In this document: one piece after another, positions 3-26,205 of the stretch
Layout: every line of letters starts with the position of its first letter
How positions within the stretch are numbered: the stretch's first letter is position 1
The notes under the pieces: model-generated
Told to the model about the DNA's origin: nothing
The model's database searches: none
The model's input: the letters and a program-made list of their open reading frames with translations, nothing else
Made by a program: the position numbers and the translations under genes
IMG/VR virus record: IMGVR_UViG_3300047121_000328
Coordinates: 1-26,205 of that record
DNA length: 26,205 bases
Strand: one strand, 5' to 3'
Source: a virus

Positions 3-866
<864 letters not shown>

Positions 867-876
<10 letters not shown>

Positions 877-1118
877 TTTTCCTCGAGGACGTCATACGTT
901 GCGACCACGGCGAGCGGGTGAATCCGTACCGTCCCGACGTCGTCCAGGATCGTATCGGGGGTCGGGCCCTCAAGGGCGATCTGTCCGAGGCCCCTCGTGG
1001 TACCCCAGCGGCGAATGCACCGCGCTTCCGTGAGGACGTACCCCGCGGGGGGATCGTAGGACAGGCGGCCGATCCAGACCCAGCCGCGTTGACCGATCAC
1101 GATCCGGAGCGGGTTCAC
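867..1118 (-). CDS. Hypothetical protein, 83 aa
   Basis: I do not recognise this protein. It reads as a small soluble domain with a Trp-rich beta-like first half (QRGWVWIGRLSYDPPAGYVL), one cysteine and an Asp/Val-rich second half. Its GTG start overlaps the stop of the 60-aa gene upstream as GTGA, which supports the start and suggests translational coupling. It is the third gene of the small run that begins with the HTH gene at 1563. No function is inferred. Confidence 0.65.
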
Positions 1119-1297
1119 GGTTCACCGTCCACGGCGGCGGTGAGCCACTCGAGGCGCACCCAACCCGTCCCGGTCGGGGTCGCAGTCTGGCGAGCTCCGT
1201 CCGGGTAGATCGCGATCGAGGACCAGCCCTCGCGACACCGGGGGTCCTCGACGATCACGAGGTCGCTCTCCCGGACGTCGTCCACTTCGGGGCTCAT
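1115..1297 (-). CDS. Hypothetical acidic small protein, 60 aa
   Basis: The protein starts MSPEVDDVRESDLVIVEDP and ends with a Trp-containing segment (TGTGWVRLEWLTAAVDGEP). The middle part, CREGWSSIAIYPDGARQTA, looks like a small beta-structure. The ATG overlaps the HTH gene's stop as ATGA, so the two are probably co-translated. A longer upstream extension of this frame runs antisense-like through the HTH gene and is rejected. The function is unknown. Position directly after an HTH gene and acidic composition make it a possible part of the same accessory unit. Confidence 0.65.
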   Translation of the reverse strand: MSPEVDDVRESDLVIVEDPRCREGWSSIAIYPDGARQTATPTGTGWVRLEWLTAAVDGEP

Positions 1298-1563
1298 AGG
1301 TCGACCCCCGCGGCCTTTGCCGCTTTCGTCGCGACCGCCGACGGCAGAAGTACGGCGTGCATGGCGAGGTCCACGCGGAGGGCCGCCTCCGGCCCGAATG
1401 ACTCCGAGATCTTGGCGATCGTCGCTCGAGTCACGGCGATTGAGGTCGCCTCGAGGCACGCGACCGCGCCGCGCGAGATCCCCAGCGCATCGGCGAATTC
1501 CTGTTGCGTGAGTCCCGCCTCGCGGCGGAGGGCGACGATCGTACGATTGAGTGCGTTGCGCAT
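1294..1563 (-). CDS. Small Xre-type helix-turn-helix protein, candidate Aca-like repressor
   Basis: This is an 89-residue DNA-binding protein. Residues about 8-55 form a Cro/CI-type helix-turn-helix: LRREAGLTQQEFADALGIS followed by RGAVACLEA and a third and fourth helix through IAKISESFG. The remaining 35 residues are Ala-rich and probably help dimerise. The ATG at 1563 is chosen because it carries the conserved GAACGAACC-ATG start region seen at two other accessory genes. Upstream extensions of the frame run through a hairpin and the preceding gene. The gene lies 44 bp downstream of a small acidic gene and within 1.5 to 2.2 kb of three copies of a 19-bp palindrome, so it is the natural candidate to bind that operator. 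This matches the acr-aca arrangement but is inference. Confidence 0.85.
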   Translation of the reverse strand: MRNALNRTIVALRREAGLTQQEFADALGISRGAVACLEATSIAVTRATIAKISESFGPEAALRVDLAMHAVLLPSAVATKAAKAAGVDL

Positions 1564-1582
1564 GGTTCGTTCTCCGGTGAAA

Positions 1583-1600
1583 GGCCCCCTCGCGGGGGCC
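1583..1600 (-). promoter_or_regulatory. Hairpin between acidic gene and HTH gene
   Basis: In minus-strand RNA this reads as a 7-bp GGCCCCC/GGGGGCC stem closed by a GCGA loop (a GNRA-type tetraloop), followed by UUUC. It lies 8 bases past the acidic gene's stop and about 20 bases before the HTH start. It could attenuate read-through, protect the mRNA end or shape translation of the HTH gene. The short U-run makes full termination uncertain. Confidence 0.6.
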
Positions 1601-1607
1601 GGTAGGT

Positions 1608-1832
1608 TCAGTTGCGAATGTGACGGGGAACTCCCGTAAGGAGGATCTGCCATTCCCACCCTTCCGCGTCGGTCCCCCAATAGGTCCGCGTCGCGGCGTC
1701 CCTGTCGTCCGAGGAATCATCCGCGAGGCAGTAGAGTTCCTCGGAGATCTCGTGGTCCCATTCGATCTCGATCGTCTCGTGGGTGCGGGCGGAGTCCGAA
1801 GTCAACAGTTTCGCGTTCTGGGCCGTGTTCAT
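1608..1832 (-). CDS. Small acidic protein, candidate anti-defence (Acr-like by position)
   Basis: This is a 74-residue protein with about 16 Asp/Glu against 6 Lys/Arg, clustered as ETIEIEWDHEISEEL and LADDSSDDRD. A Trp-rich segment (TYWGTDAEGWEWQIL) follows. I know no family for it. The ATG at 1832 has a strong AAAGGAAC ribosome-binding site within a leader shared with the gene at 2835. Upstream lie a hairpin and a promoter with a 19-bp palindrome. The next gene downstream is a small HTH protein. Size, acidity, dedicated regulated promoter and the downstream HTH partner are the usual features of anti-CRISPR and other anti-defence genes. The role is inferred from context, not from homology. 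Confidence 0.7.
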   Translation of the reverse strand: MNTAQNAKLLTSDSARTHETIEIEWDHEISEELYCLADDSSDDRDAATRTYWGTDAEGWEWQILLTGVPRHIRN

Positions 1833-1851
1833 GGTTCGTGTTCCTTTCGGG

Positions 1852-1870
1852 CCGGCGCTTCGTGCGCCGG
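1852..1870 (-). promoter_or_regulatory. Leader hairpin of the acidic gene
   Basis: CCGGCGC-ACGAA-GCGCCGG in the RNA sense forms a 7-bp stem with a 5-base loop, 19 bases upstream of the ATG at 1832. It begins right at the expected transcription start. The segment between hairpin and ATG contains the 19-base GAAAGGAACACGAACCATG, which is identical upstream of 2835. It is probably a 5' stabiliser or translation element. Confidence 0.65.
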
Positions 1871-1877
1871 TCTCCCT

Positions 1878-1906
1878 TATGTAATGTCTGACGTTGCAAG
1901 AGTCAA
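1878..1906 (-). promoter_or_regulatory. Promoter with palindromic operator for the acidic gene
   Basis: The -35 is TTGACT (1901-1906), the spacer is 17 bases, and the -10 candidate is TACATA (1878-1883). The spacer and -10 hold a near-palindrome at 1880-1898, TGCAACGTCAGACATTACA on the minus strand (TGYAA-GTC-GAC-TTACA symmetry). This position would let a bound repressor block RNA polymerase. A near-identical 30-base element sits at 3092-3120. Confidence 0.75.
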
Positions 1907-2357: not shown

Positions 2358-2551
2358 CGGCCCCCCTCGAGGCGGAGAGTGTCCAGAAGCGCCCGCGAAT
2401 TGCTAGGCACGGGGACCCATCCCCGTTGTGGGTTCAGGGTCCACCATTCCCCGTTAGGCGCGCTTCTCTCGGGGAGCGTCCACACGTAACCGTGTCCGTT
2501 CCCCACGCGAAGACCGACGATCTTGTCCCCGAAAGCGGTTTTGATCTTCAC
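2354..2551 (-). CDS. Hypothetical protein, 65 aa
   Basis: This small beta-rich protein starts MKIKTAFGDKIVGLRVGNGH, has a WTLPE segment and a WWTLNPQRGWVPVPS core, and ends in a basic helix (RALLDTLRLEGGR). I chose GTG at 2551 over the GTG at 2566 because it makes a GTGA overlap with the upstream stop, the pattern found at most junctions here, and because the residues upstream of it are less protein-like. The Trp-rich body suggests a small folded domain. No family is recognised. Confidence 0.6.
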   Translation of the reverse strand: MKIKTAFGDKIVGLRVGNGHGYVWTLPERSAPNGEWWTLNPQRGWVPVPSNSRALLDTLRLEGGR

Positions 2552-2835
2552 GCCGTCACCGAACACAGGGCGGACGCCAGGACCAGGATCCGCGCGCGGC
2601 CCTTGCCGCGGCGCTCCTCAGTCACGACGATCCCCGGGAGGGCCTCGAGGCGACGGACCAGGTTCGATCTCGAGGCCTTGTAATGCGAGCCCCACGAGGC
2701 TGCCTTGCCCGTCAGGGTCGACCCCGAGAGGGACTCGGAGCCGAGGACGATCCCGCGCTGGTAGTCGCCGCGGCACGCCTCGAGGCAGCGCTTGCGGTCG
2801 GCGGGGGAGAGGTGGGACAGATCGGAGTAGCTCAT
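2548..2835 (-). CDS. Small protein, possibly winged-helix-like
   Basis: This 95-residue protein has an N-terminal helical part (LSPADRKRCLEACRGDYQRG) and a segment ESLSGSTLTGKAASWGSHY followed by ASRSNLVRRLEALPG. It ends with a beta pair (IVVTEERRGKGRARILVLA). The helix, Ser/Arg-rich helix and basic beta-hairpin order resembles a winged helix, so DNA binding is plausible but unproven. The ATG at 2835 carries the shared GAAAGGAACACGAACCATG start region and a leader hairpin. The gene heads a three-gene unit (2835 to 1926) coupled by GTGA and TTGA overlaps. Alternative: an unrelated small phage protein. Confidence 0.65.
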   Translation of the reverse strand: MSYSDLSHLSPADRKRCLEACRGDYQRGIVLGSESLSGSTLTGKAASWGSHYKASRSNLVRRLEALPGIVVTEERRGKGRARILVLASALCSVTA

Positions 2836-2881: not shown

Positions 2882-2897
2882 TATGTACGGTCGTCAA
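2882..2897 (-). promoter_or_regulatory. Collapsed copy of the accessory promoter
   Basis: TTGACG (2892-2897) and TACATA (2882-2887) are present but only 4 bases apart, against 16 or 17 in the other copies, and only a partial operator half-site remains. A TCGACC about 18 bases upstream of TACATA could serve as an alternative -35. The upstream gene's TGA stop (2894-2896) lies inside TTGACG, as at two other copies. Confidence 0.4.
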
Positions 2898-3085
2898 GTC
2901 TCTTCGGTCGATTCTTCGTCCTCTTCGGCGATCGCGGCGTTGAGGTCCGCCGCGAACTTCGCGCTCAGGCGATCGTAGGCGACGAGCGCCGCGCCCGAGA
3001 ACTCCGCGCGGCGAGCTCGCGCGCGGTCCGCCGTCGAGGCTTTCGGGGCCCCAAGGTACTTCGTCCAGTTCGATGCGTTGCTCAT
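2894..3085 (-). CDS. Small protein, 63 aa, acidic C-terminus
   Basis: The sequence runs MSNASNWTKYLGAPKASTAD, a basic stretch (RARARRAEFS), a helix (LVAYDRLSAKFAADLNAAI) and an acidic tail (AEEDEESTEET). The bipolar charge suggests a small helical protein that binds nucleic acid or protein. I chose the ATG at 3085 because it follows AGAAGGAC directly after a promoter. Longer upstream versions of the frame run through the promoter and the 207-aa gene. It appears to be a single-gene unit with its own operator-bearing promoter. No family is recognised. Confidence 0.65.
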   Translation of the reverse strand: MSNASNWTKYLGAPKASTADRARARRAEFSGAALVAYDRLSAKFAADLNAAIAEEDEESTEET

Positions 3086-3091
3086 GTCCTT

Positions 3092-3120
3092 CTTGTAATG
3101 TCCGACGTTACAAGAGTCAA
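3092..3120 (-). promoter_or_regulatory. Promoter with best-conserved palindromic operator
   Basis: The -35 TTGACT (3115-3120), a 17-base spacer and -10 TACAAG (3092-3097) lie directly upstream of the 63-aa gene. The operator at 3094-3112 reads TGTAACGTCGGACATTACA on the minus strand: TGTAA-GTC-GAC-TTACA, symmetric at 16 of 19 positions. The -10 ends only 6 bases before the ATG, so the transcript would be almost leaderless. The upstream gene's TGA stop sits within the -35 hexamer. Confidence 0.75.
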
Positions 3121-3740
3121 GGCCGATCGTCAAAGATCTTCGTCGGCCGAGCGACCTCGATCCCTTCCTCCCGCTGGGGCAGGAACGTGAAACCCCCGCG
3201 GTGGGCCGGCGGACTGTGGGAGAGCGAGATCCGCGCCGGGCGGGGGACCGACCATCGGACCTCAAGCGTATGCGCATCGTACGAGGCGCGTTGCCCCCTC
3301 GAGAGGCGGAACACGGTCCCCCCTGGGAGGCGGAGGCCGAGCTCCCGGAGCCTCTTTCGCTCGACGGCGACCCCGAGGACGCGGACCAGTCGATCCTTCC
3401 CAGTTCCGATCCGGCGGAACTGCGCGGACGTGAGCTCGATCCATCGGTCGACCACGTAGCGATCGGGTGCGAACTCGACGGGCTCACGGGGCGGAGAGAC
3501 CCCGCTGATCTGCAGATCGCAGACGATCGTCGGGGGCAGTCTCGTCCAGCGCGCGGGGGTATACTCGACGTAGGCGTGACCCTTCGCGTCCGCGGCGTCG
3601 CCGAAGTGCCGTCGGAGGCGCGGGAGGAGCCAAGAGGGGACCCCGTCGACGGAGACGACGAGGCGGACCCATGGAACGGAAGGATCGAGGTGGGACGGCA
3701 GATCAGCGGGACACACTAGGCAGGCGGTAGGGTTCGACAT
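3117..3740 (-). CDS. Hypothetical protein, 207 aa
   Basis: I recognise no family. The N-terminus (MSNPTACLVCPADLPSHLDP) has a CxxC pair but no second metal pair nearby, so a zinc site is not established. The middle holds beta-rich segments (WVRLVVSVDGVPSWLL and HAYVEYTPARW), and the C-terminal half is basic (KRLRELGLRLPGGTVFRLSR). No signal peptide or membrane helix is visible. The ATG at 3740 follows AGGGTCG and lies 6 bases after a -10 element, implying a near-leaderless message. It is the first accessory gene after the tail module and a single-gene unit under an operator-bearing promoter. Confidence 0.65.
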   Translation of the reverse strand: MSNPTACLVCPADLPSHLDPSVPWVRLVVSVDGVPSWLLPRLRRHFGDAADAKGHAYVEYTPARWTRLPPTIVCDLQISGVSPPREPVEFAPDRYVVDRWIELTSAQFRRIGTGKDRLVRVLGVAVERKRLRELGLRLPGGTVFRLSRGQRASYDAHTLEVRWSVPRPARISLSHSPPAHRGGFTFLPQREEGIEVARPTKIFDDRP

Positions 3741-3746
3741 CGACCC

Positions 3747-3774
3747 TATGTAATGCCGCCATGTACAGTGTCAA
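3747..3774 (-). promoter_or_regulatory. Promoter with weaker palindromic operator, head of accessory region
   Basis: TTGACA (3769-3774), a 16-base spacer and TACATA (3747-3752) match bacterial consensus well. A 19-base element at 3749-3767 keeps the outer arms (TGTAC...TTACA on the minus strand) and the same placement as the other operators, but its centre is not symmetric. The TGA stop of the beta-propeller gene (3771-3773) is built into the -35 box. Confidence 0.65.
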
Positions 3775-4994
3775 GCCCCGCCGACGGAAAGGGCCTGTGC
3801 GACCTCGACGATCCCCGCGGCCCTGTAGCGCGCCGCGGCGAACCGCGTCCCCGCGAGGACGAGGACGTCAGGGGATCCCACGGGGGCGACGGCGAAGGCC
3901 CTCATGGGGTCCGGCGTCGTCGTCCACGCGACCCCGCCGTCGGTCGAGATCATGAGATCGGGCGCGTTCCCCCTCGCGGCGACGATCGTCGCGCCGCGGA
4001 CGGCCGCGACCGACCGCCCGGTGTTCCGCCACGTCACGCCGGGGAGCGTCGCGATCCTCGCGAGCGTCGTCGGGCCGTCGGTGGAGTAGACGTAGGCATT
4101 CGTCCCGTTGTCGAGGCCGACGAAAAAGAGGCCGTACTCGTCGGACCAGACGACCCACCGGACTTGATACGAGCCGAACGAAAGGAACGGGACGACCGGG
4201 GTCACCGCCGCGGAGACGCCCGGTTCCCAGTAGCCGATCTCCTGCGTCGCCGTCGCGCTCGCGGTGAGGCCGTATCTCGAGCCCACGGCAAGGTGACGGA
4301 TCGGTTCGGTCCCCGTCCGGACAATCACCGTCTCGACCGCGGCGGAGAGGTCCCCGGCAGCGTGGGTCAGTGTCCACACGGAGGGCCGGCCCAGTGTGTC
4401 GATCCCGCCTACGACGATCTCGGATCTCGCATCGTTGATCGCGGTGACGTTGGCCTCCGAGGCCCCCGCGAGCCCGGCGAACGAGTTCCACGCGAGGCCG
4501 TCCCCGCGGGCCCAAAGGTCGAAGTCCCCTGAGCTCCCCTGCGTCGCCGTCCCGGCGATCGCGTCCTCCCCGGAGGCGAGCGAGATCCAGTTACTCGCAG
4601 CGTCCGGGAGATCGAACTCGGTCGTCCACGAGTATCCCCCGTCCGCGGAGGCGTAGGCACGGCGATCGTTGCTCGCGAGCACCAGGCGTCGATCGCCGTA
4701 GGTCGCGCATGCGAGGCCCGTGACTCCGTTCGCGGGGGTCGTGTTCACCGTCGCGCGGTCCGTCCAGTTCCGCGCTTCGATCTCGTCTAGCAGTTGCAAC
4801 CATCGCGAGGTCTCCCACCGACGAAAGTTGTCCCGCTGCGGATCCAGCGGGGTCTCGGGGACGTACCCCGCGGCCTCCGCGCCGTCCGTCGGCTGGATCT
4901 TCGTCGGGGTCCCCGCCCACGGCTCGGGGCCGGCCGGATAGGTGGCGTTTGCGGCGAAGGTCCGGAGTCTCCCTCGGGGGCGTGCGGCGGTCAT
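3771..4994 (-). CDS. BNR-repeat beta-propeller tail protein, probable receptor binding
   Basis: This is a 407-residue protein. Residues about 30-75 (GYVPETPLDPQRDN, then WLQLLDEIEARN) resemble the short N-terminal attachment segment of phage tail-tip proteins. From about residue 90 there are regular beta-blade segments with two clear Asp-boxes, SADGGYSW (116-123) and STDGGVAW (350-357), plus a degenerate copy near YVYSTDGPTT. Asp-boxes are the hallmark of sialidase/BNR-type propellers, but no catalytic Arg triad is obvious, so binding to surface glycans or receptor is more likely than cleavage. The gene is the last of the tail module, after the DUF2612 gene, as expected for an adsorption protein. 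There is a 12-bp gap to the upstream gene and a promoter at its end. Confidence 0.75.
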   Translation of the reverse strand: MTAARPRGRLRTFAANATYPAGPEPWAGTPTKIQPTDGAEAAGYVPETPLDPQRDNFRRWETSRWLQLLDEIEARNWTDRATVNTTPANGVTGLACATYGDRRLVLASNDRRAYASADGGYSWTTEFDLPDAASNWISLASGEDAIAGTATQGSSGDFDLWARGDGLAWNSFAGLAGASEANVTAINDARSEIVVGGIDTLGRPSVWTLTHAAGDLSAAVETVIVRTGTEPIRHLAVGSRYGLTASATATQEIGYWEPGVSAAVTPVVPFLSFGSYQVRWVVWSDEYGLFFVGLDNGTNAYVYSTDGPTTLARIATLPGVTWRNTGRSVAAVRGATIVAARGNAPDLMISTDGGVAWTTTPDPMRAFAVAPVGSPDVLVLAGTRFAAARYRAAGIVEVAQALSVGGA

Positions 4995-13997: not shown

Positions 13998-15613
13998 GCG
14001 GTCGCCTCGAGTTGCGAGAGTGCGGCCTCGTTGGCGTCATCGATCCCCGCGCGGATGTCGCCCCGAGCGAACGGCCCTTCGGTGTTGATCGTCTGGTTGA
14101 TCGTCTGGTTGATCGTCGGGCCCGTCGTCCCCGTGGACGCGAACAGGGCGGACGCGGGTCCGGCGAGGGCCCGCGCGGCCGTCCCGAAGACCCCGGGGGC
14201 CGCGACGGTGGGTGATCCGTCCGCGTTGACGGACTGTCCCGAGAGATCGCCTCGAGGCCCGCCGAGGAAGTCCAACGATGGCACCTTGATCGCGCCGGCG
14301 AGGGCCTCGGAGAAGGCTTTCCCGATGTCCCCGGCGATCCCTACGACCCCTTCCGAGGTCGAATTCCGGAGCGTGTCCAGGAAGCGTTTCCCCGCGTCGA
14401 TCGCCGCGGTTGCGAAGTACACCGGCAACCCTAGGATCGCGGACTTCACGGACTCGACAAAGGTGATGATCGACTTCTGTCCCGAGGTCGCGATCCCGTT
14501 CGCCGCGGCGTCGTAAGCGTCGCGGACCCCCTGGGGGATCTCATCGGCGAAGAGCGTAACGATCGAGGCGCCCATCTCGGAGAACGCCTCTCCGAAGGCC
14601 TCCGCCGGGCCCTTGTCCCTCATGCGCTCCTGTAGTTGTTCGAGGTCCGCGCGGATCGCGGCGAAGACACTGGCCCCGGTCCCCTTGCCGAACAGCGTAT
14701 CCAGCAAGTCCTTCGATACGGCGTCTCCGCCCTTGAGGGCGACGACGAGATCATCGACGACCAGGTAGGCCGCCGTCAGTAGCGCGACCAATGGGAGCCA
14801 CGGCGCGAGCATCTGCAGTCCCGCGATCGCGCCCGCTGTACCGAGGATCCCGAGGACGATCTTCAGGCGGTCCGCGCCGCGCTCGCCCTTCGTGAACGCG
14901 GAGACGGTTTCGCCGATCTTCGTCGCGACCATCTCGAGCGCGGGGAAGAGTTCCCGCGCCAGCGCGCCCTTCACGGCGAGCGTGCGAACGTTCCATCGCA
15001 CCATGGCGTCGTCGTAGTCATTGATCGATCGGATCGCGTCCTCCGTGAGTCCACCGCCGAGCCGTTCGAGCTCCCCGAGCAGGGAGTCTAGTCCCTCCGC
15101 CCCGCCGGCGAACATCGGAGCGAGTTTCACTCCGGGCTTGCCGAGGGCTTCGAGCGCGCGCTTCGTGCGCTCCGACGGATCCTTGATCTTGCCGATCGCG
15201 AGGCCGACCTCCCGAAAGAGCTGCGCCGTGGGCTTCGCGTTGCCCGAAGCGTCCTCCGTCGCGACCCCGAGCGTACGGAACACATCGGCGCCGGCCTCCG
15301 CGTTCTGTTGCAGCTTCACGAGGCCGCGCGAGAGATCTTCGCCGCTGGACCCCGAGAGGTTCGCCGCGAGGCCCCACTGTTGGAGCTCGCGCGTAGAGAG
15401 GCCCAGTTGATCCGACGTGTCCTGAAGTTGCGTCGCCTGTTGAACGAGGCCGTCCACGAAGGAACGGGCCCCCTGGACGATCTCGGCGGAGCTGTAGAAC
15501 TTCGCGTACCCCTTCAGCTGATCCGCAAGCTTGTCGACGGCCTTCCCGCCCGCGGCGATCTTGGCCGTAGGGATCTGGACGTCGAAGACTGCGAGGAGTT
15601 CACGAAGGGCCAT
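13994..15613 (-). CDS. Tape measure protein
   Basis: The 539-residue protein sets tail length and passes through the tube. Residues 1-240 are mainly helical with heptad-like runs (QATQLQDTSDQLGLSTREL), and a GKPGVKLAPMFAGGAEGLDS segment is typical of tape measures. A strongly hydrophobic block lies at about 245-290 (GILGTAGAIAGLQMLAPWLP, then LVALLTAAYLVVDDLVVAL), which could insert into the host membrane. The C-terminus has a short INQT repeat. By the usual rule of about 0.15 nm per residue the tail would be near 80 nm. The ATG overlaps the end of the chaperone T extension. It lies between the chaperone and Dit-like genes, as expected. Confidence 0.85.
   Translation of the reverse strand: MALRELLAVFDVQIPTAKIAAGGKAVDKLADQLKGYAKFYSSAEIVQGARSFVDGLVQQATQLQDTSDQLGLSTRELQQWGLAANLSGSSGEDLSRGLVKLQQNAEAGADVFRTLGVATEDASGNAKPTAQLFREVGLAIGKIKDPSERTKRALEALGKPGVKLAPMFAGGAEGLDSLLGELERLGGGLTEDAIRSINDYDDAMVRWNVRTLAVKGALARELFPALEMVATKIGETVSAFTKGERGADRLKIVLGILGTAGAIAGLQMLAPWLPLVALLTAAYLVVDDLVVALKGGDAVSKDLLDTLFGKGTGASVFAAIRADLEQLQERMRDKGPAEAFGEAFSEMGASIVTLFADEIPQGVRDAYDAAANGIATSGQKSIITFVESVKSAILGLPVYFATAAIDAGKRFLDTLRNSTSEGVVGIAGDIGKAFSEALAGAIKVPSLDFLGGPRGDLSGQSVNADGSPTVAAPGVFGTAARALAGPASALFASTGTTGPTINQTINQTINTEGPFARGDIRAGIDDANEAALSQLEATA
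14084..14117 (-). repeat. 12-bp tandem repeat in tape measure gene
   Basis: A 12-base unit (gttgatcgtctg on the plus strand) occurs about 2.8 times, encoding Ile-Asn-Gln-Thr repeats near residues 500-510 of the tape measure protein. It could vary in copy number by slippage. Confidence 0.8.
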
Positions 15614-24308: not shown

Positions 24309-25713
24309 GGCCCAAGAGTGCCATGAGACGGGCCGTGTAACCAGCGCCGCGCGACAAGTAGCGAAGCGCTTGGCTCGCGGCGTCGATGTCGTCGTCCCTC
24401 GCGATCCGCGGGAAGCGTGGCCACTCCCGGCGCATGCGCTCGACGTGAGGCCCGTCGATCACGTGGACTCTTCCGGATCGCCATAGCGGCGTCGTCCCGA
24501 CGAATCGCGCCTCCTTCGAGCCTTCGGGGTTCACGAGTTCGATCCCGCCGACGGCGTCCCGTAGGACGTCCTCGCATGCGGGGCCGTTGGCCTTGTCCTC
24601 AATGAGGACCCTCGAGGCGGGCCACGCCGAGGAGTGTTCCGCGATCGTCGCGACCGTCTCCGTGAACGAGGCACGACGGAACACGGGCGGGGCCGCCATG
24701 AAAAAGTGGTCGTCCCTCGAGCGGATCCACCACTGGCCCGCGATCCAGTCCGAGGCTTCGTTGCCCTTGAAGGTCAGATCCCACGACTGGATCGCGGACC
24801 CGTCGGCGTAGGGGATCGAGTCCTTCGGGACGACGTCGATCCACGCGGGGTCGAACGAGGTTCCCTCGGTCCGGACGGGCCGTTGCTGATACTGCGCTTC
24901 CCATGTCCCTAGGAGGCGCAACGTAGATTCGAGCTCCGCGAGAACCGGTTCCGGGAACCGCGAGGGGAACAGCGGCTCGCCCTCCGCGGTACGGCGATCG
25001 CACGCCGCGGCCTCCGAATCGTGGACGTACCGCATCGGCAGTGACAGGCGCGACCATCCGGCGTCCACGGCGCGCGCGGTGACGTCGTCCGACGAGAGAC
25101 GTTGGCCTATGATCAAGCGGCCGAATGTCGCGGGATCCGTGGTCCGGTTGCTGAACGTCGTGTTGATCGCGGTCCAGGCGAACTCAAGGTTCGCCGGACT
25201 AGCAAAGGCATCCTGCGCCTTATTCGGATCGTCGACGACCAGAGTGTGACAGTGCCATCCGGTCCCTTTGCCTCGGATCGACGTATTCAACCGTCCCCCG
25301 CCGGCGACGGTCACGAGGTTCCCGACCGCGGTCGGTCCGGGGGCGAGGACGTCACCCCAGTGACGGCGGTACCATTCCGATCGAAGGAGGCCCGCGAGGG
25401 TCCCGGAGTCCCTATTCAGTAGCGCGGCGTCATACGAGACGTAGATGAACCGATGCGACGGATCCTTGGACCAGATCCACGCGGGGTAGAAGACCCCGGA
25501 GAACAGGCTCTTTCCGGTCGCCGGGGGGACGTTGATCACGAGGTCCCGAGGCTCGCGACGGTGGAACGATTCGATCGCTCGACAGAGTTCCTCGAGGTGC
25601 CACGACCCCGCGAACGGCGTCCCGCCGGGGATCTCCGTGTGCCTCCACGCGAGGCGCGCGAACCGATAGAGGCTCGAAGCCGCGGCCGCTCGCGTGAGGT
25701 CCTCGGGGGTCAC
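24301..25713 (-). CDS. terL: Terminase large subunit
   Basis: The 470-residue packaging motor has an N-terminal ATPase. The Walker A-like motif is VPPATGKS (residues 62-69), the Walker B is TLVVDDP (157-163), and IIGQRLSSDD (about 201-210) is typical of the motor's coupling region. The C-terminal nuclease starts with IQSWDLTFKGNEASDWIAGQ (about residues 308-327), where Asp311 should bind the catalytic metal, and continues to VLIEDKANGPACEDVL. It drives DNA into the prohead and cuts concatemers. The GTG start overlaps the Mom-like stop as GTGA. No small terminase is visible, so it may lie beyond the right edge. Confidence 0.95.
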   Translation of the reverse strand: MTPEDLTRAAAASSLYRFARLAWRHTEIPGGTPFAGSWHLEELCRAIESFHRREPRDLVINVPPATGKSLFSGVFYPAWIWSKDPSHRFIYVSYDAALLNRDSGTLAGLLRSEWYRRHWGDVLAPGPTAVGNLVTVAGGGRLNTSIRGKGTGWHCHTLVVDDPNKAQDAFASPANLEFAWTAINTTFSNRTTDPATFGRLIIGQRLSSDDVTARAVDAGWSRLSLPMRYVHDSEAAACDRRTAEGEPLFPSRFPEPVLAELESTLRLLGTWEAQYQQRPVRTEGTSFDPAWIDVVPKDSIPYADGSAIQSWDLTFKGNEASDWIAGQWWIRSRDDHFFMAAPPVFRRASFTETVATIAEHSSAWPASRVLIEDKANGPACEDVLRDAVGGIELVNPEGSKEARFVGTTPLWRSGRVHVIDGPHVERMRREWPRFPRIARDDDIDAASQALRYLSRGAGYTARLMALLGRG

Positions 25714-26205
25714 GGATTAACCCCGCGGAACATCCGGAAAGCGTCGGCGCGTGACCTCACGGGTACGCCTCTCCGCCATGTAGGCTCTTGGTACCCTGCC
25801 CACGGGTAGCGTCGGGCTAGCGTCGCGTCGCGCAATGCTAGGAGCGCACCGCGCCGATCGTCTGGACGCAGTAGGTACACCCATCGGTGTTTCGCCGCTT
25901 GGCGCTTCCCTCCGCGGGTCCCCGCGCCCGTGGGAGGGGGCCGTAGCACGTGCCACGTCGGTGCCCACCACCAATTGCAGGCCCGATACAGGGCGCCATC
26001 GTGACCGACGGACGGATCGGAGTAGCTCACTACCGTCGTGCACGTTGGCGCGTTCGAGCGGAGCCATTCGACGGCGGAGGCCCAATGCTGAGATCCAACG
26101 CCGCTGGTGATGCACCATCGGGAAAGCTCGAACCAGTCCGCGGGAAGCCGACGTGACGACGGGCCGGAGAAAGTCATTGTACAGCCGGGGGCCTCGAACA
26201 CCAAG
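25710..26205 (-). CDS. Mom-like DNA adenine modification protein, 5'-partial
   Basis: At least 164 residues are present and the frame is open to the right edge. The apparent TTG start at 26204 is probably not the real start. Residues about 28-80 (LSRWCITSGVGSQHWASAVE, WLRSN, then VVSYSDPSVGHDGALYRACN) match the Mom family signature SYxDPxxGHxGxxYxAxxW. KRQAAKHRWVYLLRP follows. Mom is a GNAT-fold enzyme that converts adenine in DNA to a carbamoylmethylated form and so blocks restriction. This protein would protect phage DNA before packaging. It is coupled to terL by GTGA, which suggests timing with packaging. Some phage proteins of this family are annotated only as hypothetical, and function should be tested. 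Confidence 0.75.
   Translation of the reverse strand, partial: LVFEAPGCTMTFSGPSSRRLPADWFELSRWCITSGVGSQHWASAVEWLRSNAPTCTTVVSYSDPSVGHDGALYRACNWWWAPTWHVLRPPPTGAGTRGGKRQAAKHRWVYLLRPDDRRGALLALRDATLARRYPWAGYQEPTWRRGVPVRSRADAFRMFRGVNP

Follow-up and report, generated by a model that had tools for sequence, protein, structure and literature searches.

The window analysed here, a stretch of 26,205 bases that forms one IMG/VR virus record, carries on its minus strand what is most likely a regulatory operon, ordinary in kind and with an unexplained acidic partner, of a phage with a contractile tail. Observed in the DNA are the genes of this operon, the repeated operator with its surrounding promoters and the presence of just one HTH_3 gene. 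Judging from these sequence features, we think it probable that the 89-aa product of the HTH_3 gene is a Cro-like autoregulator that controls an operator regulon extending across the phage. The protein, made from the operon itself, would most likely bind the operators as a dimer and there block RNA polymerase, repressing its own operon and, in the manner of Cro, turning down the other operator-headed units together. If so, the operator within these promoters defines a regulon in a phage group that is uncultured and has very few known relatives, and it provides a sequence handle on which orphan genes switch together.

The phage and the acidic/HTH operon

TerL, portal, head protease, sheath and baseplate genes are all found on the minus strand of the window, as are nearly all genes of this phage; the original prediction had pointed out that the locus lies entirely on one strand, which is true but uninformative. 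Two records, G001 and G002, are 99.9% identical to the window over its right 18.7-18.9 kb, and G002 (whose coordinates are also given as L012) runs 15.4 kb upstream past the window's end, where the replication genes are located. The left 7.3 kb of the window, including the 89-aa HTH gene, was found in one record alone. More remote are G003 (L014), a relative with a TerL that is 67% identical, and G005 and G006, distant relatives of 45-46 kb (hub 44%). Profiles of TerL and of the baseplate hub, searched against genome contigs, found no host or provirus, and no integrase is present in any of the phage records examined; a lysogeny switch is therefore not indicated.

The promoter of the operon, identified from the sequence, occupies positions 1878..1906 (minus strand), with a -35 box TTGACT at 1901-1906, a 17-nt spacer and a -10 box TACATA at 1878-1883. 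Between the two boxes lies operator copy 1, TGCAACGTCAGACATTACA (1880..1898, minus), a 19-bp near-palindrome in which 7 of the 9 positions pair. Unlike those of the other three operator copies, which are probably leaderless, the transcript starts with a 39-nt leader; upstream of its ribosome-binding stretch this contains a stable stem-loop (1852..1870, minus; RNA fold -19.2 kcal/mol, z -4.0). Five genes follow in this order, all on the minus strand, the last four of them overlapping: the gene for the acidic 74-aa orphan protein (1608..1832; net charge -10, pI 4.4), that for the 89-aa Xre/HTH_3 DNA-binding protein (1294..1563), a 60-aa orphan (1115..1297) whose ATG overlaps the stop codon of the HTH gene, an 83-aa protein (867..1118) with a match to DUF6948 that falls below threshold (E 0.004), and a 97-aa Gly/Asp-rich protein (583..876), the operon's last overlapping gene. 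Both the acidic and the HTH open reading frames look coding: their third-position GC is 0.80-0.81, and each has an ATG and a Shine-Dalgarno-like stretch rich in purines. Thus the two genes and the near-palindrome within the promoter, as originally predicted, are all present. The strength claimed for this promoter is putative: the -10 of copy 1 is weak and a strict sigma-70 scan misses it, whereas the same scan accepts, with 9/12 matches, two of its sisters, at L012:148 and L012:15105.

Between the acidic and the HTH genes, RNA folding places a GC-rich hairpin (1583..1600, minus), followed by a tail that is merely TTTC; it is possibly an attenuator. Such a hairpin could set the ratio of acidic to HTH protein, and this, with the adjacency of the two genes and their opposite charges (-10 and +2), would suit a two-part module in which the acidic protein relieves repression by binding to the HTH protein. 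We found no homology or structural support for such an antirepressor, however, and with adjacency as its sole evidence we hold it to be quite improbable.

Beyond these features, the regions 360-510 and 583-876 of the window contain a CCCGTA/CCCGTC/CCCGGA array that encodes a peptide repeat on the minus strand, and the open reading frames around 341-620 and 583-876 have the appearance of tandem paralogues.

A repeated promoter-operator

The operator of the acidic/HTH operon is not confined to it: across the window and the near-identical record G002, four promoter-embedded copies of TGYAAYGTCNGACRTTACA are found. A longer element of 27 nt, TTGACTCTTGYAACGTCNGACATTACA, is present at 1880-1906 and 3094-3120 of the window; two more copies, each differing from it at three positions, lie at G002:148-174 and 15105-15131. 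On its own the palindrome at 1880-1898 means little, since 122 of the 26,187 19-mers in the window pair at 7/9 or more, that is, as well as copy 1 or better; its weight comes from recurrence at four promoters. Allowing up to 6 mismatches, the window and the upstream part of G002 contain these four copies and 30 Markov shuffles contain none. The four sites also score between 27.5 and 31.8 with a matrix whose best score in 20 shuffles was 16.0, although the matrix was trained on those same sites and so favours them. Symmetry is kept within the spacer, where every copy pairs at 6 to 8 of its 9 positions; a 17-nt spacer is not normally constrained by sigma-70. Other likely promoters of this phage (before window positions 4994 and 9952, and at G002:13276) lack the palindrome, which makes it an added element and not part of the promoter consensus. 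When public viral contigs were scanned for the operator pattern, in a scan that may leave out records near the window, only records of the window phage were recovered.

The four copies head four units: (i) the acidic/HTH operon. (ii) A 63-aa gene (2894..3085, minus), which stands behind operator copy 2, TGTAACGTCGGACATTACA (3094..3112, minus; 8 of 9 pairs, within the promoter 3092-3120), and has its start codon at the predicted transcription start. (iii) A 78-aa gene behind the copy at G002:148, followed by a hairpin resembling an intrinsic terminator, so that this looks like a single-gene unit. (iv) A packaging/virion operon behind the copy at G002:15105, which begins with an 82-aa gene (L012:15140-15388) overlapping a Mom-like gene that in turn overlaps TerL, and continues into virion genes. 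A degenerate half-operator (3749..3767, minus) in the promoter of the gene at 3117-3740 reaches a matrix score of 9.3, within the noise.

In three of the four operator-headed units an ATG sits at the expected transcription start, and for this reason their messages are probably leaderless. The same arrangement extends beyond the operator: the motif TANNNT stands exactly 6 nt before the start codon at 6 of the 49 gene starts checked in the window and L012, against about 0.14 expected from its frequency in the genome, and the genes so preceded probably also give leaderless messages. These starts (for example window 4994, 5525 and 22196; L012:183, 13276 and 15140) have no Shine-Dalgarno sequence.

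The HTH protein as candidate operator binder

With 32.2 bits against the Pfam HTH_3 model (E 1e-7; curated cut-off 23), the 89-aa protein is clearly assigned to this family; a six-frame search also finds it, and it matches PHROG transcriptional regulators. Three observations make it the first candidate for the protein that binds the operators: (i) it is the sole HTH_3 match in the window, a profile search of G002 gave none, and the distant relatives G005 and G006 have exactly one each. (ii) G003 has a repeated palindrome of a different sequence, TTGACCCGGTCAA, which overlies the -35 box of three promoters in its accessory region and fits a phage-encoded regulator with its own specificity; in a scan of viral contigs this palindrome was recovered from G003 alone. 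(iii) The promoters without the palindrome, described above, set the operator apart from the promoter itself. In parts of G005 and G006, a long-repeat search revealed no repeated promoter operators.

In other respects the relatives weigh somewhat against this assignment. The G003 record stops before any HTH gene, and G005 and G006 have their HTH_3 gene in a location different from that in the window, between the tail-fibre and primase genes and directly preceding the latter, with an orthology that is merely putative. BLAST of the related records found no relatives of the HTH protein; the genes of G005 and G006 came from the profile search. Two further candidate relatives, L003 and L004, were rejected: they are longer CI-type proteins with only the HTH domain in common.

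The binder could also be another protein, either of the phage (the 95-aa or the 82-aa protein) or of the host, with the repeated promoter-operator being real and the HTH gene acting elsewhere; we regard this as possible but rather doubtful. An operator copy immediately precedes the 82-aa gene, and the 95-aa basic protein (2548..2835, minus), modelled as helices and a beta hairpin, has relatives in other phages and a predicted shape that may be winged-helix-like. However, fold searches with the 95-aa model returned nothing significant, and in G003 a homologue of this protein occurs alongside an operator of another sequence, which would not be predicted for a conserved binder; among the tested genes below 3741, the 95-aa gene is the only one with a G003 homologue. 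The HTH protein stays our first candidate. Stem-loop leaders comparable to that of the acidic/HTH operon stand before the 95-aa gene (2835) and before genes of G003. In the latter record (L014:386-1965, minus strand) the leaders downstream of the repeated promoters contain a stem-loop, and two of them, read by eye, seem to encode a short leaderless uORF that runs into the main gene's start codon and ends there.

The order of the two genes also recalls toxin-antitoxin pairs, here in a reversed HigBA-like arrangement with the first small gene as toxin and the HTH gene as autoregulating antitoxin. Indeed, the HTH domain weakly matches antitoxin models (couple_hipB, E 6e-8; PezA; HigA). These matches score far under the curated cut-offs, though (32.5 against 71.65 bits for couple_hipB), the 74-aa protein matches no toxin family in the four profile libraries searched, including those of type II, and other operons carry the operator as well, all of which makes such a pair very improbable.

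The closest likeness of the HTH protein is to the Cro/CI-like Xre (HTH_3) regulators of tailed phages (PHROG 7241, 1373 and 2328), which resemble it in size, in the HTH_3 domain and in being phage-encoded, and which act, as would be expected here, on palindromic operators in promoters. Homology is limited to about 55 residues of the HTH domain, and in the window phage we saw no integrase, cleavable C-terminal domain or divergent cI/cro switch. Mycobacteriophage stoperators, the sites of the cluster A immunity repressor, are likewise spread over the genome, but they are asymmetric and numerous (PMC9283540), whereas those of the window phage are few, palindromic and inside promoters.

The anti-defence question

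According to the original prediction this was an acr-aca or other anti-defence locus, with the acidic protein as inhibitor of a host defence and the HTH protein as its Aca-type repressor. We consider this unlikely. What stands of it is the layout: a small gene precedes an HTH gene, and an inverted repeat lies within the core promoter of the operon (1880-1898), as in the acr-aca operons of PMC9410906; AcrIF1-Aca1 of JBD30 and AcrIF8-Aca2 of ZF40 have this same order and a core-promoter inverted repeat. Autoregulation of the acr-aca type, by an HTH regulator behind an operator-bearing promoter, is thus plausible. Several differences argue against the remainder: (i) the same operator stands before three further units, the packaging/virion operon among them, so that virion genes lie behind it. 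(ii) The operon extends past the HTH gene. (iii) By sequence, the 89-aa protein is not a recognisable relative of Aca1 or Aca2: it aligns with Aca1 over 24 residues of generic HTH (E 0.002, with four proteins in the set searched) and gives no meaningful match to Aca2. (iv) Searches of four profile libraries, phage records, viral contigs and the PDB revealed no Acr homology. Moreover, in a published survey only 15% of Aca-like genes adjoin known acr genes (PMC9410906), and finding a small gene with an HTH gene after it is for this reason weak evidence for an acr. More generally, a small gene, an HTH gene and a palindrome together are weak evidence for an anti-CRISPR, and the genome-wide recurrence of the palindrome needs checking first.

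Nor did the searches lend support to a counter-defence role for the product of 1608-1832. The acidic protein has no match at E <= 1 in Pfam, PHROGs or PADLOC, a single meaningless match in NCBIfam (E 0.09), no homologue among phage records and viral contigs and no meaningful match in the PDB, and its AlphaFold model, with a pLDDT of 51, is too poor for a fold search or for judging a DNA-like layout of acidic residues. Its acidity, which had been taken as a possible sign of a DNA mimic, is not particular to it within the operon: the charge of -0.14 per residue is equalled by the 97-aa gene and nearly so by the 60-aa gene (-0.12), both of the same operon. We propose that the acidic 74-aa protein is one among several small orphan accessory proteins under shared operator control.

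A wider version of the anti-defence reading would make the small orphans behind the operator (74, 63, 78 and 82 aa) and the Mom-like gene a co-regulated early anti-defence set whose timing is set by the HTH protein. For archaeal viruses, an enrichment of anti-defence genes has been described among small genes with a common early regulatory sequence, and in SIRV2, much as in the window phage, one such sequence stands before several small orphans with one HTH-type regulator, Aca8 (PMC11065993). The window phage differs in its bacterial-type promoter and in having one copy at the head of a packaging/virion operon, while the early timing and the anti-defence role are putative here; by analogy with the archaeal case such a set is conceivable, but we judge it distinctly unlikely. 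If it were true, the operator could be used as bait for counter-defence genes.

Apparent anti-restriction genes are also carried by the window phage, which both anti-defence readings can call upon, the more so as one of them, the Mom-like gene, lies in an operator-headed operon. They comprise a C5 methyltransferase, a Dam-like gene and, immediately upstream of TerL (window 25710-26204; L012:15385-15942), the gene that matches a Mom-like DNA modification PHROG with an E of 2e-11; all three seem to act against restriction. These recognisable candidates are DNA-modifying enzymes and are located elsewhere in the genome than the acidic/HTH operon.

Two further observations concern G002 and the ends of the records. 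Before the primase gene, the region L012:420-1130 is AT-richer, with a GC down to 0.43 and no convincing gene, and is a candidate replication origin. In addition, the window and G002 break near the same place, and window 3-344 (plus strand) and L012:1-107 (minus strand) may be two halves of one small-terminase-like gene.
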